41,728 bases of DNA from Prochlorococcus sp. AG-412-J13. Its GTDB lineage: Bacteria > Cyanobacteriota > Cyanobacteriia > PCC-6307 > Cyanobiaceae. Every line of letters starts with the position of its first letter. Positions within the stretch are counted from its first letter, which is position 1. Location of the stretch: contig QCLE01000016.1 in assembly GCA_003214815.1 (NCBI GenBank), positions 1-41,728 on the forward strand, read 5' to 3'. The notes beneath the pieces are model-generated. The model made no database searches, had not been told where the DNA came from, and saw only the letters and a program-made list of their open reading frames with translations. The translations under genes were made by a program, and so were the position numbers. Of the stretch, positions 147-16,327 are shown in pieces.

Positions 147-1169
147 TTAATATTTTTTAAAATTTGCCTTTTGCTCAATTAATGAACATACTTTATCGAA
201 ATACCTGCTATTTTCTTTTTTTAAAAATAGATTTATGCCCTCAATACGTAATTTAGTATTGATAATGGGCAAACTTGTTAAAAGACTGTATTTACTTTTA
301 ATGGTTTCATTTGGCATCGTTTCGTCCATAAATAACTTTTCCTCATGAGAACAGCAAGGGCATTTATAGAAAGACATATTTTCAACCAATCCATAAATTG
401 GCATTCCAAAATTTTCATACATAGACGTTGTTCTAATTAAATCAGAATAAGATGATGAACCTGGCAAAGTAACTAAAATCACCCCAACTATTGGACTATC
501 TTGAAGAAGAGTTATCTGAGTATCGCCTGTACCTGGAGGAAGATCGATAAGCAAGAAATCTAATTCCCCCCAATCAACTTGATACAAAAACTGATTTAGT
601 AATCTTGTTAATATCGGACCTCTCCATGCAAGTGATTGATTTGATTTTGCAAGCATTGCAACAGACATTATTTTTAAGTCTTCATGATCTAATGCAATAA
701 ATTTAACTTTTCCATTTTCATCCTTAGTCAATACGTCTTGTTTACTCAATCCAACAATATTAGGGATATTAGGCCCATAAACATCGGCATCTAAAATTCC
801 TACTTTAAAACCTCTTTTTTTTAAATTTAATGCAAGGCCAACAGTTAAAGACGATTTACCTACTCCACCTTTTCCACTGCCAATAGCAATTGTCCTTTTA
901 ACTCCTTTAATAAATTTGAGATCTAAATATACTTTTTTAGCCCATGAAAAAATTTTTAGTTTATTCTCAATTATTTCTTTTAATTTAATTTGATCTGATC
1001 CAAGAAATAACTTCAAATATAAATAATCTCCAACAACTCTTATATTCCTTACAATGCAAGATGAGATAAGATCACCATAAATTTCTCTAAATTCTAGAGT
1101 TTTTAAATATTCTTTTACTTGATTCTGTCTAGCCTCATTTTCTTTATTATCCTCATTTGAATTAATCAT
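147..1169 (-). CDS. Mrp/ApbC-type P-loop ATPase, probable Fe-S cluster carrier
   Basis: This is a 340-residue Mrp/NBP35-family protein, a family that binds and transfers Fe-S clusters in the cytoplasm. The deviant Walker A loop GSGKGGVGKSS lies near residues 97-107, the switch region DADVYGPNIP follows, and a CPCC pair in the ENMSFYKCPCC segment matches the cluster-bridging cysteines of the family. The N-terminal 90 residues are a degenerate version of the MIP18-like domain usually found there. It is last in a four-gene leftward operon and overlaps the HEAT gene by 4 bp (ATGA). The divergent sequence and this context suggest it is a second, dedicated Mrp serving the upstream Fe-S/flavin enzyme rather than the housekeeping copy; that is inference. 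Confidence 0.85.
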   Translation of the reverse strand: MINSNEDNKENEARQNQVKEYLKTLEFREIYGDLISSCIVRNIRVVGDYLYLKLFLGSDQIKLKEIIENKLKIFSWAKKVYLDLKFIKGVKRTIAIGSGKGGVGKSSLTVGLALNLKKRGFKVGILDADVYGPNIPNIVGLSKQDVLTKDENGKVKFIALDHEDLKIMSVAMLAKSNQSLAWRGPILTRLLNQFLYQVDWGELDFLLIDLPPGTGDTQITLLQDSPIVGVILVTLPGSSSYSDLIRTTSMYENFGMPIYGLVENMSFYKCPCCSHEEKLFMDETMPNETIKSKYSLLTSLPIINTKLRIEGINLFLKKENSRYFDKVCSLIEQKANFKKY

Positions 1170-2146
1170 ACATTCAATTTTTCTAAAGCTTTTTGAGATT
1201 GAATTCTCACTTCAATATCAGCATCATCTAATGATTGTTTTAGAGATGGTATTGCCTTTTTAGATCCTAATAAACCCAAAGCAATAGCAGCTTCTTTTCT
1301 CACATCTGAATAATCGTCACAAAGTAATTTCACTATTTCCCCTAAATATTCCTCTGATAATACTTTTGTAAGAGCTCTCATTGAAAACTTCCTTACCTGC
1401 CAATGCAAGTCTGAAATAGCAGAAGAAAGAGATTTAGCAGAAGAATTATCCCCATGCATTTCTAATGCAATGGCTGCATTTCGTCTTACTTCCCAAGACT
1501 CATCATTTTCTAGGGAATTACACAATATTGGAACAATACAATCTTCTCTAAAATTCCCAAGAGTTAACATTGTTTCCTTTCTTACTTCTTGATCGGGGTC
1601 ATCAGCAAGGGTATTAGCTGGGGTAAAATGGGTTAATTGATTAAGATATCTAAGCGTAATAACAGCCTCTTTTCGTATATTTTTATTCTCTGATGACAAA
1701 TAAGGGCTAATTGATGGTAATGCCTGAACATCATGAATTTTTCTCAATAAAATTAAAACATAATTTATCTGCAAATCATCTTCACTCTCCAAATAGTCTA
1801 ACAACTTTAGCAAATGATCTTGATTTATTAATTCTTTAAGAGCACTACATGCTTCATCACTTACTTTTTTATCTCTTTTACTGTTTATACACTCCAGCAA
1901 TGGTAAAACAGCTTTAGCATTAGCCATTTCCCAAAGTGTTGTGACAGCAATAAGTTGAACTGAAGATGAAGAGTCTTCGAGAGCGTGAATCAAAAAAGGG
2001 ATCGTATCTTCATCGCATTCCTGTTGTAAATTTACTGCAGCAACAAGTCTATCTCCTTCGTCATCAGAGGAAAGCATTTCAACCATTTCTTGAACTTCTT
2101 CATCTAAAAGGTCAATTTCAGATTGGAGAGATTGGTTAAATTTCAC
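1166..2146 (-). CDS. HEAT-repeat protein
   Basis: This 326-residue soluble protein is made almost entirely of roughly 31-residue alpha-alpha repeats of the HEAT/PBS-lyase type, recognisable by recurring patterns such as D-x-EVR-x-A-A-x-ALG and IPxLxxSL-DxD. About seven or eight repeats fit between residues 25 and 325. There is no signal peptide and no catalytic motif, so it is most likely a protein-interaction scaffold. It starts 2 bp after the ferredoxin stop and overlaps mrp by 4 bp, so the genes are translationally coupled. Some cyanobacterial HEAT proteins are bilin lyases, but the neighbours here favour assembly or tethering of the adjacent oxidoreductase (inference). Confidence 0.85.
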   Translation of the reverse strand: MKFNQSLQSEIDLLDEEVQEMVEMLSSDDEGDRLVAAVNLQQECDEDTIPFLIHALEDSSSSVQLIAVTTLWEMANAKAVLPLLECINSKRDKKVSDEACSALKELINQDHLLKLLDYLESEDDLQINYVLILLRKIHDVQALPSISPYLSSENKNIRKEAVITLRYLNQLTHFTPANTLADDPDQEVRKETMLTLGNFREDCIVPILCNSLENDESWEVRRNAAIALEMHGDNSSAKSLSSAISDLHWQVRKFSMRALTKVLSEEYLGEIVKLLCDDYSDVRKEAAIALGLLGSKKAIPSLKQSLDDADIEVRIQSQKALEKLNV

Positions 2147-2418: not shown

Positions 2419-4125
2419 TTAAGCGACAGAAACATCATATTTTTCTTCATTTAAATTGACATCAAATAAATAGGGTTTTAAATCTTCTTTGAAGATGGTC
2501 ATTTCATTATTGTCAAGACTTTTTTTGATAATAGTGTTGCACATCCACTCTTCATCATTTCTGTTTGGAAAATCTAATCGATAATGATAAAGCCCCCATC
2601 GACTTTCAGTCCTATAGAGCGATGCTTTGGCAGCCATCTCAGCACAATCTCTTATAAAATGAATCTCTATACATCTCATCAATTCATGAGGATCTCTTGC
2701 TCCTAATTCATCTAGAACATTTTTATAGTCAATGAATTTTTCCAAACCAATTTTCATATTTTTTGGAGACTTTGGAGGCTGTAAATAATCATTAACAAAT
2801 CTTCTGAGTTTATATTCAACCTGTGTATGAGGAATTCCATTGGGATTATTTAAAGGAGCTAACAATCTCTCTCTCTCAGTATTAATAAAGTCTGAATCAA
2901 CATCACCATGATCAATATCTTTTATGTAATCCATAGCATGTTCTGCAGCAACTCTTCCAGAAACAAAAGCTCCAATCATATAGTTGTGAGGAACATTTGC
3001 CATATCACCTGCTGCATAGAGTCCAGGGATGCTCGTTCTCATAAATTCATCAACTTGAACACCTGATGCAGAATGTCCACTACATAAACCTATTTCTGAG
3101 ATATTCATCTCAACTCCATCTCTCCTATAGTTTTCTCCTCTACCAGCGTGAAATCTCTCTCTACTTGGTCTCTCATTATCAAATAATATTGTTTCAATTT
3201 CTGATATTGTCGATTCATCGAGATGATACATTTTTAAATGCACTGGTCCCTGTCCGGAATTCAACTCTCTCCAGACTTCTAACATCATTTGTCCACTCCA
3301 ATAATCACAACTAATAAATCTGTTCCCAGATGCATTAGCTGTATATGCTCCGAAGGGGCTTGCTACATAAGCACATGCAGGGCCGTTATAATCCTTAATA
3401 AGAGGATTTATCTGAAAACATTCTATATTAGATAATTTTGCGCCAGCTTGATAAGCCATAGAATATCCATCCCCTGCGTTTGTAGGATTTTCATAAGTAC
3501 CATACAAATATCCTGAAGCAGGTAAACCTAATCTTCCGCAAGCCCCAGTACATAATAAAATTGCTTTTGATTTTATGACATACATGTCACCACTTCTCAC
3601 ATCTAATCCAGTAATGCCTATGGCTCTACCATTCTGAGTTAAAACACTTGTTGCCATAACTCTATTAATAACTTTTATTTTATTCCGTTTAACTTGTCGA
3701 GATAATATTTTTTTCAAATCCTTCCCTTCTGGCATGGGTAAAACATACTTCCCAACTCTATGAACTTGTTTTAAATCATATTTACCCTCATTATCTTTTT
3801 GAAATTTTACTCCCCATTCTTCAAGTTCTTGGATAACATCAAAACCTAAAAGTCCAGTTTTGTGAACTGCTGACTGATCTAAAATTCCATCGTTAGCTAT
3901 TGTTATTTCTCTGACATATTGTTCGGGGGTAGAATTTCCAGGAATAACAGCAGTATTAACACCATCCATTCCCATAGCAATTGCCCCACTTCTTCTGATA
4001 TTCGCTTTCTCTAAAACAAGGATAGAAGAATCTGGTGATTTTTGCTTAGCCTTGACAGCAGCCATACATCCTGCAGTACCTCCTCCAACTACCAAGAAAT
4101 CAACTTCTAGATTAATAATTTCCAT
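2419..4125 (-). CDS. AprA-like FAD-dependent oxidoreductase (fumarate reductase/SDH flavoprotein superfamily)
   Basis: This 568-residue flavoprotein has an N-terminal Rossmann FAD motif (GGGTAG, residues 14-19), a RRSGAIAMGMDGVNT segment resembling AprA, and the late FAD-binding block PGLYAAGDMANVPHN. Lack of a signal peptide suggests a cytoplasmic location. The family includes fumarate reductase, succinate dehydrogenase, L-aspartate oxidase and adenylylsulfate reductase. The adjacent two-cluster ferredoxin and the AprA-like segments point to an AprAB-like heterodimer rather than a respiratory enzyme. True sulfate reduction or sulfide oxidation by APS reductase is unlikely, because neither sat nor qmo genes are visible here. 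It is the first gene of the operon, divergent from the LysR-SBP regulator. Its substrate is unknown; it may act on the compound imported by the nearby transporters. Confidence 0.85.
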   Translation of the reverse strand: MEIINLEVDFLVVGGGTAGCMAAVKAKQKSPDSSILVLEKANIRRSGAIAMGMDGVNTAVIPGNSTPEQYVREITIANDGILDQSAVHKTGLLGFDVIQELEEWGVKFQKDNEGKYDLKQVHRVGKYVLPMPEGKDLKKILSRQVKRNKIKVINRVMATSVLTQNGRAIGITGLDVRSGDMYVIKSKAILLCTGACGRLGLPASGYLYGTYENPTNAGDGYSMAYQAGAKLSNIECFQINPLIKDYNGPACAYVASPFGAYTANASGNRFISCDYWSGQMMLEVWRELNSGQGPVHLKMYHLDESTISEIETILFDNERPSRERFHAGRGENYRRDGVEMNISEIGLCSGHSASGVQVDEFMRTSIPGLYAAGDMANVPHNYMIGAFVSGRVAAEHAMDYIKDIDHGDVDSDFINTERERLLAPLNNPNGIPHTQVEYKLRRFVNDYLQPPKSPKNMKIGLEKFIDYKNVLDELGARDPHELMRCIEIHFIRDCAEMAAKASLYRTESRWGLYHYRLDFPNRNDEEWMCNTIIKKSLDNNEMTIFKEDLKPYLFDVNLNEEKYDVSVA

Positions 4126-4364: not shown

Positions 4365-6341
4365 ATGGAGTTATCTCAACTAAAAGTATTTTTTGAAGTT
4401 TCAGAACATCTAAACTTTTCAAAAGCTGCTAAAAAACTACATCTTAGTCAACCGGCAGTTTCTATAAGAATTAAATCTCTTGAAAAATCACTAAAAGTTG
4501 AATTATTCAAAAGATCTCAAAACAAGTTGGAATTAACCAAAGCAGGATTAGAAACGAAAAAAACATGCATGAAAATATTTGAAGAAATATCATTATTGCA
4601 AGAAAAATTAAATGAAGAAAAACACCAGCAAGAAAAATTAAATTTATTCTTCAACGTCAATACACAAGAAAATCTCATAAGCAAATTAATTTTAATTTTC
4701 GAAGATTCGTTGAGAGAATTAATTAAGATTAATTATTTTTCATGCTTTTCTGAAAAAGAGATATTTGAAAAAGTCAATAACATTAATAATTCCTTCGGAA
4801 TAGTTTCTTCAGAATCTTCCGGCTTTAATACAAATTCTATTCCATGCTTCCCAAACGAAATAGTTCTCCTAAAGAAAAATTCAACCAATGAATCATTACA
4901 TTTCTCAAATTTAGAAAGTATAAAGAATGAAAAAATATTATTTCCTGAAGAAAGTTCAGATGAATACTCAATTATTGAAAATAGGCTAGGGATAGCAGGT
5001 TATAAATTTGAAGATTTCGATAACAAAAAATTTGTAAGCCCTGCCCTGATTAATTCATTAACTAAAAATAGCAATTGGTTAGCTATTACTACTTTAAATA
5101 TATTCGAGAGGGAAAATCTAGAGGGTATTGAGATTATAAAGTTAGATGAACTTTTTATACCTTATACAAAGTATCTTATTTTCAATAAAGGTAATGAAAA
5201 TAATAATCTAAAAAACTTTAATAAGTTACTTGAACTATTAATAGAATTATCTTCAAAATCTGTAGATGAAGTTCAGGAATCTATATTGAGGAAAGATATT
5301 CATCACAACAATAATCTGACCTATAAGGATAATTTTTTGCCATTTCAGAAAATTTATTTAAATAATATAGATAGAAATAATAAAACCAATCTTGATGTAA
5401 AAATAGGAGTTCAACACGACACTATTCAAACATCACTAGCTTCAATAATTCCAGAAAAACTTTGTTTTTTTGATTTATTCCTTAATGAATGTGATAGAAA
5501 AGAGAACATTACCCCTAAATGGATAAATCATAATTCTGCCTACCCAATAATCTCAAAACTAAAAACTGAAGAACTTGATTTTGGTATTGTAGGTGATTAT
5601 GCAATTTCTCATCTAGCAAATCAGGAAACTAATTCTGCCGAAGATATTGTTTTGGTTAGTTTTGTGAGCATAAATCCTGAGGGAGGTGGTTCGAATTTAA
5701 TATTACCTAGGGATTCTAACGTCAAATCTTTAGATGAGTTTTCTAAAGGTTCAACCATTGCAGTTCCCTTTTTATCTACAGCTTATGGATCTTTACTTTA
5801 TAACCTTAAGTCTCAAAATTTGAGAAGAGAAGTAACCTTGAAAGACTACAGCATTAATAACATAAATTCAATTAAAGAAACGAATGTTGATGCATTTGCG
5901 TTCTTTACTCCATTTGATTATTTATTAGAATCAACAAAAGATTTTGAAATTTTAAATGAAAGTATTAGCGCACCAATTTCGTATTATGGTGTTTTGGTGA
6001 GAAAAGCGTTTTTGCAGAAGAATGAAGATATTGTTAAAGCATTTATAAAGTCACTTATAAGTGCAAAATATTGGTTTTATTCAGCTTCCTCAACAATACA
6101 AAAAATTAGTAAATGGACTGGAGTAAGCGAAAAAATTGTAAATTCAATTTTAGGAAATAGAATTGGCAAAGATTGTCATTACATACCTGATATGAAAATC
6201 AGGAAAGATTGGATTGATACCTATACGAATGAAATATATTTTGAACCTGGCACTGTAGATTTTAATCAAACTACAAAGAAAAATCCAATTATTTTTGAGG
6301 ATTTACTAAATGATGCCTATAAAGAATTAAATCTTAAATGA
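4365..6341 (+). CDS. LysR-type regulator fused to an ABC solute-binding-protein-like domain
   Basis: This 658-residue protein is more than twice the usual LysR length of about 300. Residues 1-60 are a typical LysR winged helix (FSKAAKKLHLSQPAVS), and roughly 90-300 form a diverged LysR effector domain. From about residue 345 to 630 there is a second periplasmic-binding-protein fold of the NMT1/TauA/SsuA type, starting DVKIGVQHDTIQTSL and including STIAVPFLSTAYGSLL and RKDWIDTYTNEIYFEPG. These segments parallel VSVPFGSAAHGMVL and VRDWIDDSFLEAAVSELG in the binding protein at 9085-10584. There is no signal peptide, so the domain is cytoplasmic. It is divergent from the flavoprotein operon and overlaps the YeiH gene end-to-end by 8 bp. 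It probably senses the same ligand that the neighbouring ABC system imports (inference). Confidence 0.88.
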   Translation: MELSQLKVFFEVSEHLNFSKAAKKLHLSQPAVSIRIKSLEKSLKVELFKRSQNKLELTKAGLETKKTCMKIFEEISLLQEKLNEEKHQQEKLNLFFNVNTQENLISKLILIFEDSLRELIKINYFSCFSEKEIFEKVNNINNSFGIVSSESSGFNTNSIPCFPNEIVLLKKNSTNESLHFSNLESIKNEKILFPEESSDEYSIIENRLGIAGYKFEDFDNKKFVSPALINSLTKNSNWLAITTLNIFERENLEGIEIIKLDELFIPYTKYLIFNKGNENNNLKNFNKLLELLIELSSKSVDEVQESILRKDIHHNNNLTYKDNFLPFQKIYLNNIDRNNKTNLDVKIGVQHDTIQTSLASIIPEKLCFFDLFLNECDRKENITPKWINHNSAYPIISKLKTEELDFGIVGDYAISHLANQETNSAEDIVLVSFVSINPEGGGSNLILPRDSNVKSLDEFSKGSTIAVPFLSTAYGSLLYNLKSQNLRREVTLKDYSINNINSIKETNVDAFAFFTPFDYLLESTKDFEILNESISAPISYYGVLVRKAFLQKNEDIVKAFIKSLISAKYWFYSASSTIQKISKWTGVSEKIVNSILGNRIGKDCHYIPDMKIRKDWIDTYTNEIYFEPGTVDFNQTTKKNPIIFEDLLNDAYKELNLK

Positions 6342-7347
6342 CTAAAAATTTATAACTAAGTATTAATAGAACAAAAGAACTAATTAAACTATATATCTGA
6401 AGTTTAGGAGCAAAATTTTTAATATTAAATATATTAAAATTTATACTAATTTCAAAAACAACTAAACATAATAAAAATTTAGAAATAACTTTTCCACTGC
6501 TCAATATTAGATTAAATATATATGTAATAAAAAAATTATTTTGGAAAAAATTAAAAATAAGTAAATCAAAAAGATTCGCTATTGCAATTACAATTAAAAA
6601 TTTTAATAAAAAAGAGGGAATTGCGCTTTTGCCTAAGTTAAGTTTATTCTTAGAGATATCTTCACGATAATTATAATTAAATGATAAAAGGACCAAAAAT
6701 GGCGTTAGACATAATATTCTCAAAGATTTAATAATAATTGCTGTTTCAAGAGAATTTTCGGAATATATTGCAGCACTGCTAATAACTTGCGCAGTAGATT
6801 GAATTGATGATCCAGCCCATAGTCCAAAGTCATATGGACTTATTTCGAGTAGTTTACCTATAATGGGAAGAAAAATTACAAGGATAAAACCTGAAAAAGT
6901 ATTGATCCATAATGCTGTTGAAATATCATTTTTATTTGATTTAATAACCTTTGAGGCAAATGCTATTGCAACTGGACCACATATACAATTGCCAGCTATT
7001 AGCAGAAGTGCAATAGGTTTTTTAATACCCAATATTTTTGAAAAGATAATACTTATGTAATAAGTTCCAAGGATACAAACAACAATCCAAAAGATCATCA
7101 TAGGATTAAGAAGTCGTATTTTACTTAATAGAATTTGGCTCCCCATTAAAATTATTGCAATTGACAATAATTTCTCATAAGGAATTTCTTGATAAAATAG
7201 ATTACTTTGGATTTTAATAATCCTCGCTAGCTGACCAATAAAAAAAGCAAGAACAATTGGATCTAAGAAAATTAAGGAAGAAAGTTTATCAAATTGTGTT
7301 GAGAATGTAATTATATTGACAGCTAGAATGATGAGGATACATATCAT
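6334..7347 (-). CDS. YeiH/UPF0324-family membrane protein, putative anion exporter
   Basis: This 337-residue protein has about ten hydrophobic segments and the conserved blocks of the UPF0324/YeiH family (PF03601): AGNCICGPVAIAFAS, WAGSSIQSTAQVISSAA and IIKSLRILCLTPFLVLLS. Members next to sulfonate-degradation genes in other bacteria have been proposed to export sulfate or sulfite released from the substrate (TauZ, SuyZ). It is the last gene of the first ABC operon and overlaps the ATPase by 4 bp, so export of a product of the imported compound is plausible. Transport of a different small anion cannot be excluded. The stop overlaps the convergent LysR-SBP gene by 8 bp. Confidence 0.8.
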   Translation of the reverse strand: MICILIILAVNIITFSTQFDKLSSLIFLDPIVLAFFIGQLARIIKIQSNLFYQEIPYEKLLSIAIILMGSQILLSKIRLLNPMMIFWIVVCILGTYYISIIFSKILGIKKPIALLLIAGNCICGPVAIAFASKVIKSNKNDISTALWINTFSGFILVIFLPIIGKLLEISPYDFGLWAGSSIQSTAQVISSAAIYSENSLETAIIIKSLRILCLTPFLVLLSFNYNYREDISKNKLNLGKSAIPSFLLKFLIVIAIANLFDLLIFNFFQNNFFITYIFNLILSSGKVISKFLLCLVVFEISINFNIFNIKNFAPKLQIYSLISSFVLLILSYKFLVI

Positions 7348-8153
7348 TGCATTAATTTCAATGTTTCTTCTTTAATTAAATTAAGAATTTTTATTTTTAC
7401 TTTCTGAAATTCTTCAAGAAAAGATGAATTTAAACTTCTAGGCCTAGGAATATTAATTGGGATAATTTCTCTAATGTGACCCGGGTTTACGCCCATGATT
7501 ATTACTCTATCTGCTAACAAAATTGCTTCATCAACATCATGAGTTACAAATACAACTGTTGTCTCAAACTCTCTCCAAATCTTAAGTAACATTTCTTGCA
7601 ACAAACTCCTTGTTTGAGCATCAACAGCTCCAAAAGGTTCATCCATTAAAATTATTTTTGGATTAGTTATTAATGCTCTTATGATGCTTCCCCTTTGCTG
7701 CATACCACCAGATAATTGATTAGGGTAAGCTTTTCGATATTTTTCTAAACCCACAAGTTTTAAATATTTAGTAACTTTCTCTTCAATATCTTTACTGTTA
7801 ATCTTTTGAAGTTTTAATCCATAACCTACATTTTGCTCTAAAGTTTGCCAAGGAATTAAGGAATTTTTCTGAAAAACAAACCCTCTTTCTGGACCAGGTT
7901 TTCTAACAACTTCATCACTTACATAAATCAAACCTTCATCTGGTTTTGTAAAACCAGCCAACAAGTCTAATAACGTAGATTTACCACAACCAGATGGTCC
8001 AAGAATACATGTAAACTCTCCTTTTCTGATTTGAAAGTTTACATTTGAGAGGATGATCTTTTTTTTATTGTTAGTTTTAAATGTTTTGATAACATTATCA
8101 ACCAAAACATACTTTTCTTCGACTTTTGATTTTTTAATCATATCAAATACCAT
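7344..8153 (-). CDS. ABC transporter ATPase, NitT/TauT family (system 1)
   Basis: This 269-residue ATPase has a Walker A loop GPSGCGKST at 52-60, signature LSGGMQ at about 147-152, Walker B IILMDE at 167-172 and a switch histidine in VFVTHD. The PFGAVDAQTR segment after Walker B is typical of SsuB/TauB/NrtD-type ATPases. After the signature, the usual RVGIARAL is replaced by RGSIIRAL, a mild deviation. It overlaps the permease gene by 11 bp if read from the first ATG; the second ATG (codon 5, 8141) would give no overlap. It energises import by the permease and binding protein encoded upstream. It is clearly paralogous to the ATPase at 10784-11599. Confidence 0.92.
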   Translation of the reverse strand: MVFDMIKKSKVEEKYVLVDNVIKTFKTNNKKKIILSNVNFQIRKGEFTCILGPSGCGKSTLLDLLAGFTKPDEGLIYVSDEVVRKPGPERGFVFQKNSLIPWQTLEQNVGYGLKLQKINSKDIEEKVTKYLKLVGLEKYRKAYPNQLSGGMQQRGSIIRALITNPKIILMDEPFGAVDAQTRSLLQEMLLKIWREFETTVVFVTHDVDEAILLADRVIIMGVNPGHIREIIPINIPRPRSLNSSFLEEFQKVKIKILNLIKEETLKLMQ

Positions 8154-9009
8154 CCTTTGAAATAGTTCTCCAAGGCATGAAAGAATCAGTTATTTTTAGA
8201 ACAACAAATGAAGAAAAGGCACCCATTAATCCAATAAGTACCATTCCCATAACTATTGGCGGATATTCTGAAATAACATATGATTCCCAAGTTTTGTATC
8301 CAATACCAAATCTTCCAGCAATAATTTCAGCTGTAACTAAACAAAACCATGCATTCCCCATACCAATAACCAAACCAGCACTAATACCAGGTAATGAACT
8401 TGGTAGTATTATGTCTTTAAATAATTGAAAAGAATTAGCTCCTAATGATTGCCCAACTCTAATCATCAAACGATCAGATAAAGAATTCTCTACTGCCTTT
8501 TGAGTACTTATTAGTATTGGATAAAAAGCTCCAACAAAAGTTATGTAATACATGCCTGATTCGGCATCAGGAAACATTAAGATTGCTAATGGTATCCATG
8601 CTACTGCAGGGATTGGTCTCAACAATTCTAGAGGAGTTGCTAAAAAATCTTCTAATATCTTGGATGATCCAATTAGTAATCCAACAAAAATTCCTAATAT
8701 TGAGCCAGAAATAAAGCCTCCAATAACTCTAAGAATACTTGCTTTGAAATGAACCCATGGAGAATCATTAATGAATTGAATGAAAGCATTTATAACTTCA
8801 ACAGGTGTAGGAACAAAAACAAAATTTATTATGAAGTTAAAATCGATCCAACATAAAAATTCCCATAATAAAAAAAACAGTATTATTGAAATTAATTTCC
8901 TAGTGTAGGTTTTTGAATTAATCCGAATTAATTCCCATAACATTAATCGCTCTTTTTTATATGATTTAAAATAAAAATTTGATTTTGAAGAAACGTTAGT
9001 TGAAGTCAT
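8143..9009 (-). CDS. ABC transporter permease, NitT/TauT family (system 1)
   Basis: This 288-residue inner-membrane protein has about six transmembrane segments and the ATPase-contacting loop QSLGANSFQLFKDIILPSSLPGISAGLVIGMG, the EAA-type loop of BPD permeases. PTPVEVINAF and ELLRPIPAVAWIPLAI are characteristic of the SsuC/TauC/NrtB group. It follows the binding-protein gene after a 75-bp gap holding a perfect palindrome and overlaps the ATPase gene. Family membership does not fix the substrate (nitrate, cyanate, taurine, alkanesulfonates, thiamine precursors and others are known). Confidence 0.92.
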   Translation of the reverse strand: MTSTNVSSKSNFYFKSYKKERLMLWELIRINSKTYTRKLISIILFFLLWEFLCWIDFNFIINFVFVPTPVEVINAFIQFINDSPWVHFKASILRVIGGFISGSILGIFVGLLIGSSKILEDFLATPLELLRPIPAVAWIPLAILMFPDAESGMYYITFVGAFYPILISTQKAVENSLSDRLMIRVGQSLGANSFQLFKDIILPSSLPGISAGLVIGMGNAWFCLVTAEIIAGRFGIGYKTWESYVISEYPPIVMGMVLIGLMGAFSSFVVLKITDSFMPWRTISKDGI

Positions 9010-9021
9010 CTTAATTTAAGA

Positions 9022-9047: not shown

Positions 9048-9084
9048 ATTGATTTTTTTCAGGTTTTAATAAAAGTAAATTTAA

Positions 9085-10584
9085 TTAAATATATTTTTTA
9101 GAGAGAGTTTTGAAATCTAAAACTTCAGAATTTACTGACTCTGCAAATTTGTCTGCATCTGATTTCAATAAGAAAGAACTAATCATTCCATCTTCATCAA
9201 CATAGAATGCATTTGTAGCAAATAGCTTCCATCCTTGGAATCTATCGTGAACAAAAAGGACACTTGGGGTCTTAGATTTAAATTTACCGTTCAATGCTAG
9301 TAGCATATTTTTAGTCGAGGCAAAGTTTTTAACCTTCTTTTGTCCTTCAAACCAAATTTGGGCTGCCATTTTTGGATTTTCAATTGAGGAAGAGTCATAT
9401 GCATCTTTTCCTGTAATGACGTAAGAAGCGCCTTTTTCGCTTTGCTCATCAACTGATGTACCTAACTCTGAGACTGCCGCCTCAAGGAAAGAATCATCGA
9501 TCCAATCTCTCACATCACTTGGTTGTATTGATTTATCTTGAATTTTTCCAAGATCTTTTAGTACTGCAATGCTATTTTCCAGAGCAAGCAACTGAACTTC
9601 TTTTATCTCAGGTGTAAGAGGTTGTAGTCCAGATGGTCCTAAAAACATATAAACAACTTCCTTATCTATACCTGACCACTCTTCTATACTCGCAGATAAC
9701 TTTTCTGGAGTTTTTTGGAATTTATTATTAGCTTGAATTACTGACTTCATAAAAGCGGTAACTACTTCAGGACATTGCTTTGCGAAATCTTCCCTTACAG
9801 TTATTCCATGTAAAGTAGGTACTCCTGTTTGGGCTCCATCAAAAATTTTCTTAGCAAAACCTTTAAAGGGAAATAATTCTCCAAATGGCACAAAATCAGC
9901 ATGAGCAGCAATTTGATTTTTCTGTAAAGCAGATCCTCCAACAGCAGGTGCCTGACTAATTAAAGTAACATCTTTTTTTGTATCAAGACCAGCATCACTT
10001 AACGCTTTTAATACCATTCCATGAGCTGCAGAACCAAATGGGACAGATACAATCCCACCCTTTAAATCTGTTAATTTAGTAGCAGAACTATTTATTGGAA
10101 CGACAACTGCATTTCCAGCTCCATTGGGACTGTAAGCTAACGTTCCTATGTAAACAGTCTTAGCTTTACCACTACCCTCTCTACCTTTTATTAAATTAAT
10201 AACTGCAGGGAAATCTCCCATTAAACCAATTTGTATTTGATTTGCAATCATTTTATTTGTGATTGGAGGTCCAGAGGTATAACTAGACCATTCCAAATCG
10301 TACTTTAAGCCTTTATATTCGCCGTCAGTTGGGAGATTATCCTTAAAAATTTCTAATTCTCTTACGACAGCTCCTCCCACAGCAGTATTAATTACTTGAT
10401 CTTGCGTTCCAACATGAATTTTAGAACAAACTGCTTTTCCTGATTTTTTCCCAAAAGGGAATGCATTGGCCTGCGGGGTTAAAAAGGATGTTGCGACAGA
10501 AAGTCCAAGGATTAATTTCCAAAATTTACCTCTTTTGTAATTAAATCTTTTGGATAAATTTTTGTTAGGGAGATAAGTTTTCAT
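9085..10584 (-). CDS. ABC solute-binding protein, NitT/TauT family, with C-terminal NosL-like domain
   Basis: Read from the ATG at 10584 (codon 10 of the longer frame starting at 10611) the protein has 499 residues. This start puts a basic stretch and a hydrophobic signal peptide ending TPQANA at the N terminus. The next ~350 residues are an SsuA/NMT1-type binding fold (IQIGLMGDFPAVINL, GGIVSVPFGSAAHG). The last ~110 residues resemble NosL: AAQIWFEGQKKVKNFAST, a VHD motif, TNAFYVDEDG, and SDADKFAESV followed by VLDFKTL, in NosL order. The Cys-Gly-Met copper-binding motif of NosL is not visible. NosL is normally an outer-membrane copper chaperone, so this fusion is unusual. It is the first gene of the transport operon and probably sets its specificity. 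Confidence 0.85.
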   Translation of the reverse strand: MKTYLPNKNLSKRFNYKRGKFWKLILGLSVATSFLTPQANAFPFGKKSGKAVCSKIHVGTQDQVINTAVGGAVVRELEIFKDNLPTDGEYKGLKYDLEWSSYTSGPPITNKMIANQIQIGLMGDFPAVINLIKGREGSGKAKTVYIGTLAYSPNGAGNAVVVPINSSATKLTDLKGGIVSVPFGSAAHGMVLKALSDAGLDTKKDVTLISQAPAVGGSALQKNQIAAHADFVPFGELFPFKGFAKKIFDGAQTGVPTLHGITVREDFAKQCPEVVTAFMKSVIQANNKFQKTPEKLSASIEEWSGIDKEVVYMFLGPSGLQPLTPEIKEVQLLALENSIAVLKDLGKIQDKSIQPSDVRDWIDDSFLEAAVSELGTSVDEQSEKGASYVITGKDAYDSSSIENPKMAAQIWFEGQKKVKNFASTKNMLLALNGKFKSKTPSVLFVHDRFQGWKLFATNAFYVDEDGMISSFLLKSDADKFAESVNSEVLDFKTLSKKYI

Positions 10585-10613
10585 AATAAAAACTTTGTTA
10601 AGTACATACATAT

Positions 10614-10655
10614 TGAATAATCAAATTTCTTATACGGAAAAGTTACTTATGATAC
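10614..10655 (-). promoter_or_regulatory. Candidate promoter of the system-1 ABC operon with NtcA-like box
   Basis: GTT-N8-TAC at 10642-10655 (one mismatch to GTA-N8-TAC; it fits the looser GT-N10-AC core) is followed on the minus strand, 22 bp later, by a -10-like TATTCA at 10619-10614. Transcription would begin near 10607, downstream of the first in-frame ATG (10611), which supports translation from 10584. TTATACGGAAAA at 10630-10641 resembles TTATACGAAAAA in the promoter at 16363. It is weaker than the box at 16356. Confidence 0.35.
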
Positions 10656-10783
10656 ACAGAATGCATGAACTTATAGTTCTTATTTATGAGCAAAGTCACT
10701 ATAAAAAATATTAATAGTTATTTAGAAAATATTTACCTATCAATCTCTCAGGGATCTAATTCTAAAAGTATATTTTTAAAAGT

Positions 10784-11599
10784 TTATAAGTGGTTTTGTT
10801 TTTCAAATGCTTTTATACTCTCCTCTCTAATTAAGCTATGACAAATTTGTCTTAATTCTATAAATCTTTTTGAATCTGTGGTTTCTTTATCCCTAGGTCG
10901 AGGAAGATCAATTTTTAAATCTCTTTTTATTTTCCCAGGGAGCGTACTCATTAACAAAATTCTATCAGACAAAAAAACAGCCTCATCAATATCATGAGTT
11001 ACGAAAACAACCGTTATCTTAAATTCTCTCCAAATTTTAAGAAGATTTTCCTGCATAATAATTCTTGTTTGCGAGTCAAGGGCTCCAAAAGGTTCATCCA
11101 TTAATAAAACATCTGGATAATTTGCTAATGCTCTTGCAATTCCAACTCTTTGTTGCATTCCACCAGATAATTCATTTGGATAATGATTTGCATATTTTGA
11201 AAGGCCAATCATATCTAAAAACTTTAAAGCTATTTCTTCTGGAGACTCATTCCCCTTTTTATTGATACTAGGGCCAAATGAAATATTCTCTTTTACAGTT
11301 TTCCAAGGATACAGAGAATATTGTTGAAACACCATCCCCATTTCTGGACTAGGTTTATTTATTTCTTTATTATCAAGAGAAATTTTTCCATTAGATGGAT
11401 TTACGAATCCTGCGATACCATTCAAAAGTGAAGACTTTCCGCATCCAGAGGGTCCCAATATACATACAAATTCCCCGGGATTAATTGTTGCAGAGATATC
11501 TTTTAAGGCATAAATTTGCTCATTACGAGAAGAATAGCTTATTGAGATATTATCAATTACTACTTTCCCTTTTGTTTTTGAAAGAATGTTTTGATTCAT
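10784..11599 (-). CDS. ABC transporter ATPase, NitT/TauT family (system 2)
   Basis: This 271-residue ATPase has Walker A GPSGCGKSS at 49-57, the Q-loop in MVFQQYSLYPW, signature LSGGMQQRVGIARAL, Walker B VLLMDEPFGALD and VFVTHDIDEA. It has all the features of TauB/SsuB/NrtD-type ATPases. It is the last gene of the second operon, 23 bp after the amidase gene. A 172-bp gap with its own promoter separates it from the system-1 binding-protein gene. Close similarity to the system-1 ATPase suggests both transporters derive from related NitT/TauT systems. Confidence 0.92.
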   Translation of the reverse strand: MNQNILSKTKGKVVIDNISISYSSRNEQIYALKDISATINPGEFVCILGPSGCGKSSLLNGIAGFVNPSNGKISLDNKEINKPSPEMGMVFQQYSLYPWKTVKENISFGPSINKKGNESPEEIALKFLDMIGLSKYANHYPNELSGGMQQRVGIARALANYPDVLLMDEPFGALDSQTRIIMQENLLKIWREFKITVVFVTHDIDEAVFLSDRILLMSTLPGKIKRDLKIDLPRPRDKETTDSKRFIELRQICHSLIREESIKAFEKQNHL

Positions 11600-11622
11600 T
11601 GTAAATAATTAAGTTTAAGAAT

Positions 11623-12987
11623 CTATTCCTGATGAATAGGAAAATTTTTTAAAAGAGTTTCAGCAACAAAACCAACTTTTGAATCTTCAAAAGCCTTACC
11701 AAAAATAGTCACTCCAAATGGCATACCATTTTCATAGAAAGCAGCTGGTATTGAAATTCCACTTAAATCTAAAATATTTGCAAAATACGAATAGTATCCT
11801 AAGTTGCTATTTGAACCAATAGGATCTCTTTTAAGATCAGAAATTTTACACAAAAAACCCACTGTAGGTGTCATTAGAAATTCATTACAACCTATTTCTG
11901 ATTCTAAAAAATATTGTATTTCTTTAACTCTCTCTTGAGCTTCAAAAACATCTTTACCACTCCACTTTTGACCATTTTCTAGGATCTTTAAGGTTGTATC
12001 TAAAACAGCACTTTTATTTTTTGCAAGAAATTTATACAGAGAGGAGTATCTTTCAGCTACCCAAGGGCCATCGAATAGCATTTTTCCTGCTTCCAAAAAC
12101 ATCGAGAAATCTATCGTAATAATCTCAATACCATCATCTTGAAGTTTCTCTAATAAATTTTCATATAATCTTTTTGCCTCTTTATTGCCAAAGAAATTTC
12201 TTTGTTTCTCTTCAGGAACTCTTATCCTAATTCTTTCCTTAATTTTCTGAATTTGAAAATTTCCTCTTTGGAAGTCATATCTTAAAGTTTTATCTTTTTT
12301 TGAATCAGAAAAAGCAATATGAGCTATTTCTAGAGCATCTTTTACAGACGAAGCAAATACCGATGGGCAATCAAGACTGGGACAACAAGGAACGAAACCT
12401 TTAGTACTTAAAGTTCCTCTAGTAGGCTTTAGCCCAATAATATTATTCATAGCAGCGGGAATTCGTCCTGATCCACCTGTATCAGTTCCAATAGAGAAAC
12501 AAACTTGTTTTGTAGCTACTGACAGAGCAGAACCTGAACTAGAACCACCCGATATATATTCATCATTAAAAACGGAGGTACACAATCCATAAGGCGATCG
12601 AGTCCCATTTAATCCAGTTGCAAACTGATCGAGATTTGTTTTACCAAGGCAAATTGCCCCGGCATTTTCCAAAGCTTGTACTACTGGAGAAGATTTTTCT
12701 GGAAAGTATGAATATTTTGGACATGCTGCTGTAGTGGCTAGACCCTCAACATCAATATTATCTTTTACAGAAAAAGGAATGCCCCATAATGGTTTATTCT
12801 TTCGTGATGATGTGTAGACTAATTCTGCAATTTTGATAGCCTCTGATCTTTTCCTAAGAGAAATCCATATTTTATCCTTGGAGTCTTTCTCAATTCTTTC
12901 ATAACAGTCATTTATAAGCTCAGGAGGGCTCAAACTTGAATCATCATATAATTCTCTGATTGAGTTTAAATTAAATTTATTTTTCAA
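11623..12987 (-). CDS. Amidase-signature enzyme, allophanate-hydrolase (AtzF) type
   Basis: This 454-residue enzyme has the Ser-cisSer-Lys triad of the amidase signature family: K75 in SVKDN, S149 in GGSSSGSA and nucleophile S173 in TDTGGSGR. The spacing 74/24 equals that recalled for AtzF allophanate hydrolase (K91, S165, S189). GLKPTRGTLSTKGFVPCCPSLDC is also close to allophanate hydrolase rather than GatA. The C-terminal decarboxylating-type domain of full-length AtzF (about 600 residues) is absent. No urea carboxylase is nearby, so the substrate may be a ureido or amide compound brought in by the adjacent transporter, releasing ammonia. It lies between the TauA-like binding-protein gene and the ATPase gene. 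Cytoplasmic; no signal peptide. Confidence 0.85.
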   Translation of the reverse strand: MKNKFNLNSIRELYDDSSLSPPELINDCYERIEKDSKDKIWISLRKRSEAIKIAELVYTSSRKNKPLWGIPFSVKDNIDVEGLATTAACPKYSYFPEKSSPVVQALENAGAICLGKTNLDQFATGLNGTRSPYGLCTSVFNDEYISGGSSSGSALSVATKQVCFSIGTDTGGSGRIPAAMNNIIGLKPTRGTLSTKGFVPCCPSLDCPSVFASSVKDALEIAHIAFSDSKKDKTLRYDFQRGNFQIQKIKERIRIRVPEEKQRNFFGNKEAKRLYENLLEKLQDDGIEIITIDFSMFLEAGKMLFDGPWVAERYSSLYKFLAKNKSAVLDTTLKILENGQKWSGKDVFEAQERVKEIQYFLESEIGCNEFLMTPTVGFLCKISDLKRDPIGSNSNLGYYSYFANILDLSGISIPAAFYENGMPFGVTIFGKAFEDSKVGFVAETLLKNFPIHQE

Positions 12988-13022
12988 AATAATTGAATTT
13001 ACTAATGTGAATAAGGGGTATT

Positions 13023-13053
13023 AAAAAAAGAGGGTTTTACCCCCCCCTTTTTT
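13023..13053. terminator. Hairpin between binding-protein and amidase genes
   Basis: An A-run plus GAGGG, a short loop, then eight Cs and a T-run (13023-13053) form a G:C-stemmed hairpin with A/T flanks, the form of a leaky intrinsic terminator on either strand. It lies after the TauA-like gene stop and before the amidase start, so it could reduce downstream expression. The C8 run is conspicuous in this AT-rich sequence. Confidence 0.6.
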
Positions 13054-13064
13054 ATGAATTAAAT

Positions 13065-14096
13065 TTAATCCACAACTTTTTCTAAATAAGATGGATCAAG
13101 GAATTTTTCGTAATCCTTCCTTTTAAGTTGTTTTGGTAAACGTTTCTGGGAGACAAGAAACTTAGATGTTTTAACAAGTGTGTCTGCAAAACCTCCGATA
13201 TCATCAGATGTACCCATATATTGAGAAGTTAGTTGTTTTTTGCAAGGAACCATTTCTGTACCTTTCATCATTCGAGTTGCATCCTCCAAATCCAAAGATA
13301 ATTCTTCAGCAATTATTTTTGCCGTTTTTGCAGGATTATTGATCCAGAAATCGATACCTGCACATTCAGCTTTTACAAACTTTTCAACATATTCTGGATA
13401 TTTTTTAGCGAATGACTTCATTACAACTCCAACATCCCAAGTAGGATAACCTCTTTTTTCCATAATTCCAGAAGTCATAAAAATATTACCTCCTCTTTTT
13501 ACAGCTTTATCTAAGTTAGGCTCCCAAAACCAAGCTGCATCAAGATCACCTCTCGCCCAAGCTGCTGCAATATCATTTGGTCTTAAATCTAGAATTGTCA
13601 TCGATGATGGATCAATTCCTTCATCAGCAAGAGCTTGCAGTAAAAGGTAATGAGTTGTGGAACCGAAAGGAGCAGCAACAGTTTTCCCTTTTAAATCCTT
13701 GAAAGATTTAATATTTGCATCAGTTCTGACAACCATTGCTTCTACAAAATCAAGCATATTAAGAACCATGATTCCATCAATTGGTAGTTTTCTTGTAACC
13801 CCAATTGCAGTAGGAGGATTACCTAAACCCCCAAAATCTACTTGTTTTGCGGCGATAGCTCTTAACATGTCTCCTCCACCACCAACTTTGATATGCTCAA
13901 CTTCTACACCAGGCATTTCTTTTTGAATAAGACCTAAATTCTTAGTAACTAACTGAGCATTTACTAAGTTTAAATAACCCACTGTAATTTTTTTTGGTTT
14001 TGCAAATGCTTCAATGGGAAAAGTCATCATTAGAAGTGTCATTGCAGAAAGTGATCCAAAAAGAGTTTTGGATACTTTATTCAAAATGTTTTTCAT
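13065..14096 (-). CDS. TauA-like ABC solute-binding protein (system 2)
   Basis: This 343-residue exported protein has a signal peptide ending near PIEAFA. The mature protein starts KPKKITVGYLN, followed by typical TauA-family blocks: QVDFGGLGNPPTAIGVTRK, a DFVEAMVVR strand, GKTVAAPFGSTTHYLL, AAWFWEPNLDKAVKRGG and GYPTWDVGVVM. The family binds taurine, alkanesulfonates or related small organic N/S compounds in the periplasm. Hairpins flank the gene on both sides, which would allow higher expression than its operon partners. Taurine itself is possible, but no taurine dioxygenase or transaminase is present. The M20 and amidase genes point to an amide- or ureido-containing ligand instead (inference). 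Confidence 0.9.
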   Translation of the reverse strand: MKNILNKVSKTLFGSLSAMTLLMMTFPIEAFAKPKKITVGYLNLVNAQLVTKNLGLIQKEMPGVEVEHIKVGGGGDMLRAIAAKQVDFGGLGNPPTAIGVTRKLPIDGIMVLNMLDFVEAMVVRTDANIKSFKDLKGKTVAAPFGSTTHYLLLQALADEGIDPSSMTILDLRPNDIAAAWARGDLDAAWFWEPNLDKAVKRGGNIFMTSGIMEKRGYPTWDVGVVMKSFAKKYPEYVEKFVKAECAGIDFWINNPAKTAKIIAEELSLDLEDATRMMKGTEMVPCKKQLTSQYMGTSDDIGGFADTLVKTSKFLVSQKRLPKQLKRKDYEKFLDPSYLEKVVD

Positions 14097-14164
14097 TTTT
14101 TTTTTGATAAAATCTTTAAGGATAAAGGTTGTTTTTGTCCGATAAATGGACTTTGGCTTGATAA

Positions 14165-14204
14165 TTGATGCCTAGGGCCCGAGATATCGGGTCCAAGGCA
14201 TCAA
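14165..14204. repeat. 40-bp inverted repeat overlapping the end of the permease gene
   Basis: Two 18-base arms (TTGATGCCTAGGGCCCGA and its near-complement, 16 of 18 pairs) are separated by four bases. The repeat encodes the last ten residues and stop of the system-2 permease and extends to just before the binding-protein gene. It is unusually G+C-rich for this genome. In the leftward mRNA it forms a strong stem-loop upstream of the binding-protein message, where it could block 5'-to-3' or 3'-to-5' decay and stabilise either product. Confidence 0.75.
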
Positions 14205-15002
14205 TATTCTTCCTATAAATCGCATAAATATATCAAGACCAATACCTGTTAGGCCTAAAACTATTAATCCCATAATCACAACATCAGATAACAAAAACTT
14301 TGCCGCATCCCAAATCATCCAACCAATCCCTGCAGATGCCGCAACAATTTCAGCAGCTACTAAGACTGTATAAGTAAAGCCCAGTGATATTCTCATTCCT
14401 GCAAGTATTGTGGGACCAGCTGCTGGAAGATAAACATTGAAAAGGATTGTTTTTTTTGATGCACCTAAACCTTTGGCGACTCTTAGGTAAACAGGATCAA
14501 TATTTTGAACTGCTTGTATGGTGGCTATTATCAGTCCTGGCAATGCAGCTAAAAATAGAAGCGCAAGTTTTGATTCTTCTCCAATACCTAGCCACATTAC
14601 CAAAAGTGTATATAAACCCAGAGGAGGCAATGGTCTATAGAATTCTATTAAAGGATTTAATAGAGCTCTAGCTATTTTTGATGCCCCCATTAAAACGCCC
14701 ATTGGAATACCTATAAAGCAAGCCATAATGAATGCAGCTAATATCCTATTTACGCTTGTGAATACATGAACAAATAATGTATTTCCTTGGTAACCTTCAG
14801 TTGAAACTTCTATAAAAGATTGCCAAATTTTTAAAGGGCCTGGAAGAAAAAGTTCATCAGCCAAGCCTGTTTCAGTTACTACTACCCACGTAATAAATAA
14901 AATATTTACAGTTAACATCGAATACGCAAAAGTTTTTTTACGCATGAAAGGAGGAATAAATCTTTTGATGTTTCTTTTATTTTTTATTTGATTATTACTC
15001 AT
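14172..15002 (-). CDS. ABC transporter permease, NitT/TauT family (system 2)
   Basis: This 276-residue TauC/SsuC-type inner-membrane protein has about six transmembrane segments, LPGPLKIWQSF near the N terminus, EFYRPLPPLGLYTLLVMWLG, and the ATPase-contacting loop KGLGASKKTILFNVYLPAAG. It starts 5 bp after the M20 gene's stop, so the two are co-transcribed. The 3' end is embedded in a 40-bp inverted repeat. It forms the membrane channel for the TauA-like binding protein and the ATPase of the same operon. Confidence 0.92.
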   Translation of the reverse strand: MSNNQIKNKRNIKRFIPPFMRKKTFAYSMLTVNILFITWVVVTETGLADELFLPGPLKIWQSFIEVSTEGYQGNTLFVHVFTSVNRILAAFIMACFIGIPMGVLMGASKIARALLNPLIEFYRPLPPLGLYTLLVMWLGIGEESKLALLFLAALPGLIIATIQAVQNIDPVYLRVAKGLGASKKTILFNVYLPAAGPTILAGMRISLGFTYTVLVAAEIVAASAGIGWMIWDAAKFLLSDVVIMGLIVLGLTGIGLDIFMRFIGRILMPWTRYLGP

Positions 15003-15007
15003 TATTT

Positions 15008-16306
15008 TTATGAACCTTCTTCAATTCCTAAAATTTCAATAATCGTCAAAGCATACATTTTTGCTGCAATAACAGCTTTAGTTATAGAGATACTCTCATT
15101 ATCTGGAGCCCAACCATCCTCTCCAGGACCAAAAGTAACTGCATTTATTCCAACTTCTCTAAATCTAATTGTGTCATTAAAAGCATTTTTTCTATTTGGT
15201 ATTGCTTCTTCACCCATAAATTTCGAATAAACCTTATTGATTGATAAACAAGGTTCTTCATTTAAAGGAACTGGATCAGTTGCAGGAACAAATAGTGAAT
15301 CTTTTACTTGATTTATTTTATAAGTGATATCTTTTCTATCTCCCATAAAAGATTTAACTTCATTTTCGATATCGAGGATTATGCTTTCAAGATTCATGCC
15401 AGGTACAATTCCCACAACAGCCAGAGTTATTGTGCAGGCATCAGGAGAGAATTGCATCTCCCCAGGTAAGCCACCTCTTATACGAACAATTGTTGTACAA
15501 GGTGGGGTGTGGCCCATGAAATCAGTTATTTCATGAGTGAAAGGCATTTTTTCTAAATAGGAAATTAACCTAGCTGCTTCAACAATTGCATTATTACTTG
15601 TGTCAGGACGCCAAATATGGGCTTTGTCACCTTCTATTGTTACCTCGATAAGACAATGTCCTCCATTGGCTATAGACAAATTCATACCCCAATCGCCCTT
15701 AGTAGCATCACCGCCATATGCAGTTGGTTCTGCAGTAATTGAATAATCAGCTTTAATTCCTATCTCTTTAGTTAGATATATTGATCCATGAGTTCCATCT
15801 CTCTCTTCATCTACGCAAAAGCAATACATTAGATCGCCTTTTAACTTAATCCCATTTTCAACTAATGCTTGAGCAGCAAGAATGGTACAGGCTAAGTTCC
15901 CCCGTGTATCAGATGATCCCCTAGCATATAAAAGGTCTCCATCTCTTGTAGCCTCAAATGGATTGTAATTAGTTTTATTCCATTTATGAGGTTCTACAAC
16001 TGGGTATGTATCCATATGGTCATTCATCATTAAAATAGGACCATTCCCTTTACCTTTTAAAACCCCAACAACATTTGGTCGGTGGGGAACACTTTCGTAT
16101 CTTTTAACATCCATTCCTATTGCTTCTAATTTACCTGAAATAAGCATCGCAATTGCTTCTTCTTCTCCTCCAGGTAAGTCAGGATCAAGTGGATCGCAAG
16201 CTCTTGGTTGTCCTGCTTTTATTAATTCCGCAGCTAATTTGAGCCACCTTTCTTCCGTTATGTCATTTAGAATTTTCTGCTCAAATTCTGAAAATTTTTG
16301 ATCCAT
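15008..16306 (-). CDS. M20-family metallo-amidohydrolase/deacylase (ArgE/DapE-like)
   Basis: From the ATG at 16306 the protein has 432 residues; a longer frame starts at 16327, but the predicted transcription start near 16321 favours the shorter form. In the longer numbering, metal ligands of the M20 family are visible at H104 and D106 (NDHMDTYP), D140 (ARGSSDTRG), E174-E175 (DEERDG) and E200 (TAEPT). The dimerisation-domain histidine in GDKAHIWRP is present. The final histidine ligand expected after GPG near the C terminus is absent: the segment reads GPGEDGWAPDNE and no histidine occurs in the last ~100 residues. The family cleaves N-acyl, N-carbamoyl and peptide bonds. As first gene of the operon it may process the imported compound. 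Confidence 0.85.
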   Translation of the reverse strand: MDQKFSEFEQKILNDITEERWLKLAAELIKAGQPRACDPLDPDLPGGEEEAIAMLISGKLEAIGMDVKRYESVPHRPNVVGVLKGKGNGPILMMNDHMDTYPVVEPHKWNKTNYNPFEATRDGDLLYARGSSDTRGNLACTILAAQALVENGIKLKGDLMYCFCVDEERDGTHGSIYLTKEIGIKADYSITAEPTAYGGDATKGDWGMNLSIANGGHCLIEVTIEGDKAHIWRPDTSNNAIVEAARLISYLEKMPFTHEITDFMGHTPPCTTIVRIRGGLPGEMQFSPDACTITLAVVGIVPGMNLESIILDIENEVKSFMGDRKDITYKINQVKDSLFVPATDPVPLNEEPCLSINKVYSKFMGEEAIPNRKNAFNDTIRFREVGINAVTFGPGEDGWAPDNESISITKAVIAAKMYALTIIEILGIEEGS

Positions 16307-16327
16307 TAAGTTATACGCATTGATCAC

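Follow-up and report, generated by a model that had tools for sequence, protein, structure and literature searches.

The substrate-binding protein (SBP) of an ABC importer in Prochlorococcus sp. AG-412-J13 ends in a domain that, by profile comparison and predicted structure, is a true homologue of NosL, and this domain lacks the NosL copper motif. The gene lies in the window, by which we mean the whole 41,728-nucleotide stretch analysed (contig QCLE01000016.1). In our judgement there is about an even chance that the protein is the SBP of an SsuA/TauA-type organosulfur importer, with the copperless NosL fold as a docking or closure module, and that this importer feeds a neighbouring reductase-like flavoprotein. 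The fusion had been noticed from the sequence in an earlier annotation of this DNA (the original prediction) and is both true and non-obvious. Going beyond that annotation, we find that it is widespread outside Prochlorococcus and part of a conserved sulfur-type gene module, for which no name was found among the literature matches. The features discussed are collected in Table 1.

Table 1. Positions of the discussed features in the window, with the basis of each assignment.
Feature	Position	Strand	Basis or remark
Mrp/ApbC-type iron-sulfur carrier ATPase	147..1169	-	NF041136 5e-63, NF008669 7e-60, both below cut-off
HEAT-repeat protein of reductase module	1166..2146	-	matches 607-896 of flavoprotein-HEAT fusion model NF010374, 78.3 bits
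Small ferredoxin-type subunit, 75 aa	2149..2376	-	HgcB 40, aprB 36 bits, both below cut-off; conserved beside flavoprotein
APS/PAPS-reductase-like FAD flavoprotein	2419..4125	-	NF006131 946.9 bits, cut-off 587
LysR-type regulator fused to C-terminal SsuA-like domain, without NosL part	4365..6341	+	HTH_1
YeiH-type membrane protein (PF03601), putative sulfate/sulfite exporter	6334..7347	-	148.7 bits, above cut-off
ABC ATPase, same importer as SBP	7344..8153	-	ABC_tran 114 bits; conserved
ABC permease, same importer as SBP	8143..9009	-	BPD_transp_1 56.8 bits; conserved beside SBP
SBP of ABC importer with C-terminal NosL-like domain	9085..10584	-	499 aa
NosL-like domain, residues 390-499	9088..9417	-	PF05573 26.6 bits; AF2 model with Foldseek and VIA NosL matches; hhalign 99%
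K453, family-specific near-invariant	9226..9228	-	35/36 fused domains, 0/10 NosLs
W411, family-specific invariant	9352..9354	-	36/36 fused domains, 0/10 NosLs
NosL CXM copper-motif site, here D397-S398-S399	9388..9396	-	alignment columns
SsuA/TauA/NrtA-type binding domain, residues ~53-330 (approximate bounds)	9595..10428	-	PDB matches 3e4r, 6ssy TauA, 2x26 SsuA, 3uif SsuA
N-terminal export signal, residues ~1-41	10462..10584	-	by eye: basic N-end, hydrophobic stretch, ANA before F42
Second importer set: ATPase, allophanate-hydrolase-like amidase, taurine-type SBP, permease, M20 hydrolase	10784..16327	-	

The SBP ends in a homologue of NosL

The original prediction was of an ABC binding protein that carries a NosL-like module, and both halves of that description held. 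The 499-aa SBP scored above cut-off against the Pfam models NMT1_2 (28.2 bits) and NMT1 (24.5 bits) and matched PF05573, the NosL family; it fell below the curated cut-offs of the SsuA family model TIGR01728 (1.4e-29, 103.2 bits against 163.5) and of the TauA family model (72.6 bits against 304.25). An in-frame ATG further upstream, at 10611, would provide an alternative start and a product of 508 aa. The orthologues L006 and L007 carry lipobox-like LLAC and LISC at their N-termini instead of the export signal listed in Table 1. At 1e-6 or better, the solved relatives of the binding domain were only TauA, two SsuA proteins and one 'nitrate transport protein', and the family profile matched TauA 6ssy at 3.1e-21. 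The sulfonate- and amine-binding residues of TauA are described in an excerpt of PMC6906117. Counting residue matches by eye, we found the sulfonate-contacting glycines G61 and G79 opposite G105 and G123 of the SBP, and the taurine-amine binders E106 and D205 replaced by V160 and H259. Taurine was rejected as the ligand on this sequence comparison, because the amine-binding pair is not kept.

The claim that the last ~110 residues are NosL-like had been made from a series of quoted motifs, all of which are in the translation, and it agreed with the profile and structure comparisons. Residues 390-499 alone matched PF05573 at 26.6 bits (E 8.3e-6), above the 24-bit gathering cut-off; scanned as a whole protein, the SBP matched over residues 403-498 at 20.6 bits, below it. 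Whole-protein scans of ten homologues gave eight matches, three of them above the cut-off (Leptolyngbya 29.2, Methylocystis 27.8 and Pseudanabaena 24.1 bits) and five below it (22.8, 20.2, 16.9, 16.1 and 13.3 bits, the last being E 0.11), while the whole proteins of L035 and L047 had no PF05573 match. A 15-row profile of the NosL-like domain, A3, reached the record of L047 at 4.3e-5 and the genome of L035 at 9e-45, although A3 includes L035 among its own rows. Run against all PDB sequences at E<=10, A3 retrieved three NosL sequences only (6.2e-6, 0.0086 and 0.0096), and the only match of the single window domain was NosL 7og7 at E 0.32.

Predicted structure gave the same answer. The AlphaFold2 model of the isolated domain had a pLDDT of 91.2, and among its 171 Foldseek matches at E<=10 the first six were NosL, led by 7og7 (E 4.3e-6, TM 0.70); the matches include NosDFYL complexes. 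VIA-align ranked NosL first (7og7, Z 14.8, rmsd 2.0 over 110 residues), followed by the organomercurial lyase MerB (Z 8.0, with 98 residues superposed at rmsd 3.1 and 7-12% identity) and, at a Z of about 4-5, by ribosomal L24e-type chains. MerB was not among the best 50 of the 171 Foldseek matches. That the domain model matches both NosL and MerB agrees with the common fold, derived from duplicated treble clefs, that excerpted text of PMC4999995 describes for the two proteins. Finally, hhalign aligned 36 fused domains with 10 non-fused NosLs at a probability of 99%, CXM columns included. On these profile and model comparisons, residues ~390-499 are a true NosL homologue. A search of BFVD for viral relatives of the domain returned no match at E<=0.001. 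The full-length AlphaFold2 model had a mean pLDDT of 69.8, was weak over much of the binding part and was too weak for reading a contact between the NosL-like domain and the SBP.

The copper site of NosL is missing from the fused domain

According to an excerpt of PMC6530538, the CXM motif of NosL has a strictly conserved Cys and Met, to which Cu(I) binding is attributed, and a further Met is absolutely conserved. We looked for these residues in a fused set collected from loci, in which 65 ORFs gave 36 distinct domain sequences, and in the 10 non-fused NosLs, from loci L051-L054, L072-L075, L079 and L080. CXM was present in all 10 non-fused relatives and in none of the 36 fused domains; as the original prediction had noted, the CGM motif is absent from the window protein, whose CXM columns read D397-S398-S399. 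We assigned the second conserved Met to the sole other column with Met in 10/10 NosLs, and by this reading of ours the column is a gap in 36/36 fused domains, the loop being missing; the window's clade has a Met near it, which is unconserved. With no CXM and no second-Met loop in any of the 36, the fused domain is, on the evidence of the alignment, no NosL-type copper chaperone. The earlier view that the role differs from that of NosL is supported. The accompanying statement that nitrous oxide reductase is absent also stands for this organism: none was found in its own 97.4% complete genome, where the NosZ models TIGR04246 and TIGR04244 reached 34.5 and 18.7 bits against cut-offs of 625 and matched C-terminal ends only.

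Cysteine content divides the fused family. No cysteine occurs in 28 of the 36 domains, the window's included, and two occur in the other eight (L035-L039, L068, L069 and L076), the first in the CXM-Cys column (Cys in 10/10 NosLs) and the second in a column with Cys in 4/10 NosLs. With two cysteines retained in NosL Cys columns, the fused domain looks derived from a copper- or metal-type ancestor, the copper motif having been lost afterwards, if we infer the direction correctly; the eight two-Cys lineages may use them for a metal or a disulfide.

Such residues keep alive the idea that the domain is still a metal site, for copper, zinc or another metal, built from other ligands such as H446/D447 or, in some proteobacteria, the two cysteines, with metal status gating ligand capture. 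The predicted fold is that of a metal chaperone, the eight two-Cys domains place their cysteines where NosL does, and D447 is Asp in 35 of 36 fused domains. The same Asp is found in 8 of 10 NosLs, however, and so looks structural, and H446 is His in just 19/36; together with the universal absence of CXM and of the second-Met loop and the 28 cysteine-free domains, this makes a remaining metal site unlikely. Metal-dependent ligand capture, one of two roles suggested in the original prediction, thus finds no backing for the window protein, which has neither CXM nor any cysteine in this domain. The other suggested role, docking, is the one we favour, as a proposal.

The domain is constrained and carries its own signature

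Against the close orthologues L024, L026 and L027, dN/dS of the NosL-like domain was 0.02, 0.02 and 0.10, and that of the SBP part 0.007, 0.010 and 0.022; in the comparison with L028 the silent sites of the domain were saturated and give no ratio. The domain ratios of 0.02-0.10 indicate that it is constrained and kept under purifying selection. These values bear directly on whether the domain is only a passenger in evolution, stabilising the protein as a tail but serving no specific purpose. It does evolve faster than the SBP part, with identities of 89% against 98% to L027 and 78% against 90% to L028, and in 5 of 36 members the column of D394, in the first hairpin, is a gap. We nevertheless give the passenger idea little credence, given the low dN/dS, the presence of the domain in every row (18 of 18) of A2, the full-length alignment, and the two conserved residues, W411 and K453, that are specific to the fused family.

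W411 and K453 can be read in two ways. They might line the cavity of the NosL/MerB fold, making the domain a second ligand site where the organosulfur ligand, or a co-ligand, would be bound and concentrated before it reaches the SBP cleft. Their restriction to the fused family fits this, as does the likeness to MerB, the next fold after NosL, which according to an excerpt of PMC4999995 is a NosL-fold enzyme that binds organometals at the former metal site. The same residues are equally possible as interface residues, and we consider the second-site proposal improbable, favouring a docking or closure role for the domain. MerB-like lyase activity was rejected for the window protein, the domain having no cysteine. 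MerB has catalytic cysteines, and a C160S mutant is named in the titles of the matched MerB PDB entries.

The fusion is present in three bacterial groups

Within its own genome, PF05573 has one match, the SBP-NosL gene. The full-length protein was found in 6 of the 299 genomes of the order, its own included, and five more match the binding domain only. Across the phylum PF05573 matched 10/386 genomes, six with ORFs of the fused type of ~500 aa, and A3 matched 9/321 genomes in the class around G627 (five fused) and 6/337 in the class around G628 (four fused). Named carriers, from 18 loci, comprise Prochlorococcus, Synechococcus, Leptolyngbya and related cyanobacteria, Azospirillum, Rhodocyclales and Aquabacterium; one of these loci, L041, was dropped as a short and weak match. 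A plasmid search matched 319 records, 41 of them with at least 80% query coverage, and carriers at that coverage include rhizobia, Paraburkholderia, Methylocystis, Acinetobacter baumannii, Cupriavidus, Tsukamurella and Nonomuraea. Although divergent in Tsukamurella, the domain was still detected there with A3. By these sequence matches the fusion is present in cyanobacteria, proteobacteria and actinobacteria. No title or abstract among the listed literature matches (open-licence PMC) describes a NosL-SBP fusion or the gene set, which is no proof of absence.

A conserved gene module points to organosulfur

The whole reductase set (flavoprotein, ferredoxin, HEAT-repeat protein and Mrp) is present in the window at 147-4125. 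The flavoprotein scored 190 bits against the aprA model, far below the cut-off of 641.75, and its nearest solved relative is the alpha subunit of PAPS reductase 8a8o (4.1e-61, residues 2-550). Compared by eye, Trp206-Tyr207 of 8a8o correspond to Tyr211-Glu212, and two nearby Arg to Phe and Leu. Given the low aprA score and the replacement of Trp-Tyr and of both Arg, the sequence suggests that the substrate is probably not APS or PAPS. For this PAPS reductase, from Methanothermococcus, an excerpt of PMC10322725 proposes that FAD N5 attacks the PAPS sulfur.

We then compared 37 fused loci, comprising 17 named relatives, 8 chosen plasmid matches and 12 loci from the phylum and class searches; close pairs are included, so the counts are not independent. 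The NF006131 flavoprotein lies nearby in 31 of them. Five of the six misses are stretches that end at a contig end (L026 and L028-L031), and the sixth, L114, is a true miss, yet its genome G1234 has the flavoprotein elsewhere. In one check set, 7/7 genomes have the flavoprotein, six of them with SBP-NosL (G1234 among them). All six fused genomes of the phylum search have it on the same contig, within 4.1-5.0 kb. The ferredoxin and the HEAT-repeat protein accompany the flavoprotein, joined in many cyanobacterial loci by the Mrp-type ATPase; in Tsukamurella, flavoprotein and HEAT form a single chain.

The flavoprotein also occurs without the fusion. It was found in 15 of 373 cyanobacterial genomes, and a search for SBP-NosL at 1e-30 did not find it in nine of the 15; as a positive control, the same search detected 5/5 other fused genomes. 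Eight of the nine non-fused genomes were examined, and seven of the eight have a TauA/SsuA-like SBP of 338-366 aa beside the flavoprotein, L102 being the one without. In L101, the one such SBP scanned, SsuA scored above cut-off, as did MetY and MetX models downstream of the flavoprotein. Organosulfur uptake by the SBP-NosL importer is likely, we infer, from these SsuA-like SBPs (7/8) and the one MetX/MetY pair in versions of the locus that lack the fusion. Binding proteins of the sulfonate type, of several different kinds, adjoin the flavoprotein and its ferredoxin. NtaA/DmoA-type monooxygenases are encoded in L100, L044 and L049, MsnO8 in L044, and an SfnB-like protein, below cut-off, in L049. 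On a Sinorhizobium fredii plasmid, the stretch 12253-16396 of L044 holds SBP-NosL, MsnO8, NtaA/DmoA monooxygenases, an M20 deacylase and a GNAT protein, and looks like a sulfur-scavenging island.

Several other neighbours were characterised. The YeiH-type protein scored 100.5 bits against TIGR00698, below the cut-off of 232.6. Residues 378-586 of the LysR fusion reached 45 bits against TIGR01728 (cut-off 163.5), and its SsuA-like domain has 26% identity to residues 55-316 of SBP-NosL; the fusion may serve in the cytoplasm to sense the imported ligand. This LysR-SBP regulator was seen in most cyanobacterial loci, and GntR or Crp regulators instead in most proteobacterial loci. The amidase of the second importer set matched an allophanate-hydrolase-like model at 520.5 bits (cut-off 487); it would fit a nitrogen compound better than a sulfur one, which speaks against the organosulfur reading. 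In L109 the amidase, taurine-type SBP, permease and M20 hydrolase adjoin the SBP-NosL module, as they do in the window.

Membership of the selenocysteine-assisted organometal (SAO) system was rejected, the best NCBIfam matches of the neighbours all lying below cut-off: 286.4 and 268.2 bits for the two ATPases against SaoA (cut-off 360), 115.5 bits for the permease at 8143-9009 against SaoP (295) and 97.4 bits for the LysR protein against NF040786 (250). SaoX was not among the NCBIfam matches of the window's SBP-NosL, and a Cupriavidus homologue matched SaoX at 26.1 bits against a cut-off of 300.

The importer is missing from the assembly of a close relative

In G272, a close relative with an 87% complete genome, the sequence corresponding to window 6410-10688 is missing from locus L123, with no N at the site. 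The missing stretch holds most of the YeiH gene and all of the ATPase, permease and SBP-NosL genes. Its flanks are 94-96% identical on both sides of a junction near 10314-10317 of L123, and GAGCAAA is present at both window edges of the stretch. G272 retains the flavoprotein, ferredoxin, HEAT-repeat protein, Mrp, LysR-SBP regulator and second importer. The gap may be an assembly artefact; if it is a genuine deletion, the same enzyme may be supplied by the second importer (10784-15002). From this deletion and the nine of 15 flavoprotein-bearing genomes in which SBP-NosL was not found, neither the NosL-like domain nor its importer seems essential to the reductase module.

Discussion

Our preferred reading is that the periplasmic SBP-NosL would bind an organosulfur anion, probably sulfonate-like, for the ABC importer encoded beside it. 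The NosL-fold domain would rest against the binding lobes or the permease through W411 and K453 and, as a docking or closure module, would tune delivery of the ligand. The imported compound would then pass to the neighbouring APS/PAPS-reductase-like enzyme of flavoprotein, ferredoxin and HEAT-repeat protein. A bolder extension, to which we attach only a small chance, is an undescribed aerobic route in which the organosulfur anion enters through SBP-NosL and the flavoprotein releases its sulfur reductively; the NosL fold would then be a general docking module of ABC transporters, as NosL is on NosDFY, serving in this case free of metal and handing ligand to the permease.

The fusion shows the NosL fold in use beyond copper delivery, conserved within an SBP across three bacterial groups, and PF05573 annotation by itself would wrongly point to copper or denitrification. 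The analysis also marks out a compact set of genes, carried by few picocyanobacteria: an importer, an APS/PAPS-reductase-like enzyme, a HEAT protein, an Fe-S carrier and a LysR-SBP regulator. If the ligand is organosulfur, the set would open a sulfur or nitrogen source to just a small share of picocyanobacteria.

With SsuA and TauA the window protein shares the binding-domain family, and the backbone glycines of the sulfonate site align; it differs in falling below their curated cut-offs, in the replacement of TauA E106 and D205 and in its additional NosL-like domain. The flavoprotein, with its adjoining small ferredoxin, is a near full-length match to the PAPS reductase of Methanothermococcus thermolithotrophicus (8a8o) and resembles AprBA, but it lies far below the aprA cut-off and has Trp206-Tyr207 and two Arg of 8a8o replaced. 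Bacillus YcnK was considered as a precedent for a NosL domain on a protein outside the nos system and set aside. MerB shares the NosL/MerB superfold with our domain (Z 8.0, borderline alone; the shared fold is published in PMC4999995, in the excerpted text); the window domain differs in having no Cys, hence not the catalytic Cys of MerB, and in its 7-12% identity. NosL itself is the closest comparison. The window domain differs from it in being fused to an SBP, in lacking CXM and the second-Met loop and in having W411 and K453, and the protein neither stands alone nor lies in a nos cluster, no nitrous oxide reductase having been found in the genome. The two have in common a domain family and a fold, both are exported, and NosL too works with an ABC transporter, as an excerpt of PMC7558416 describes.
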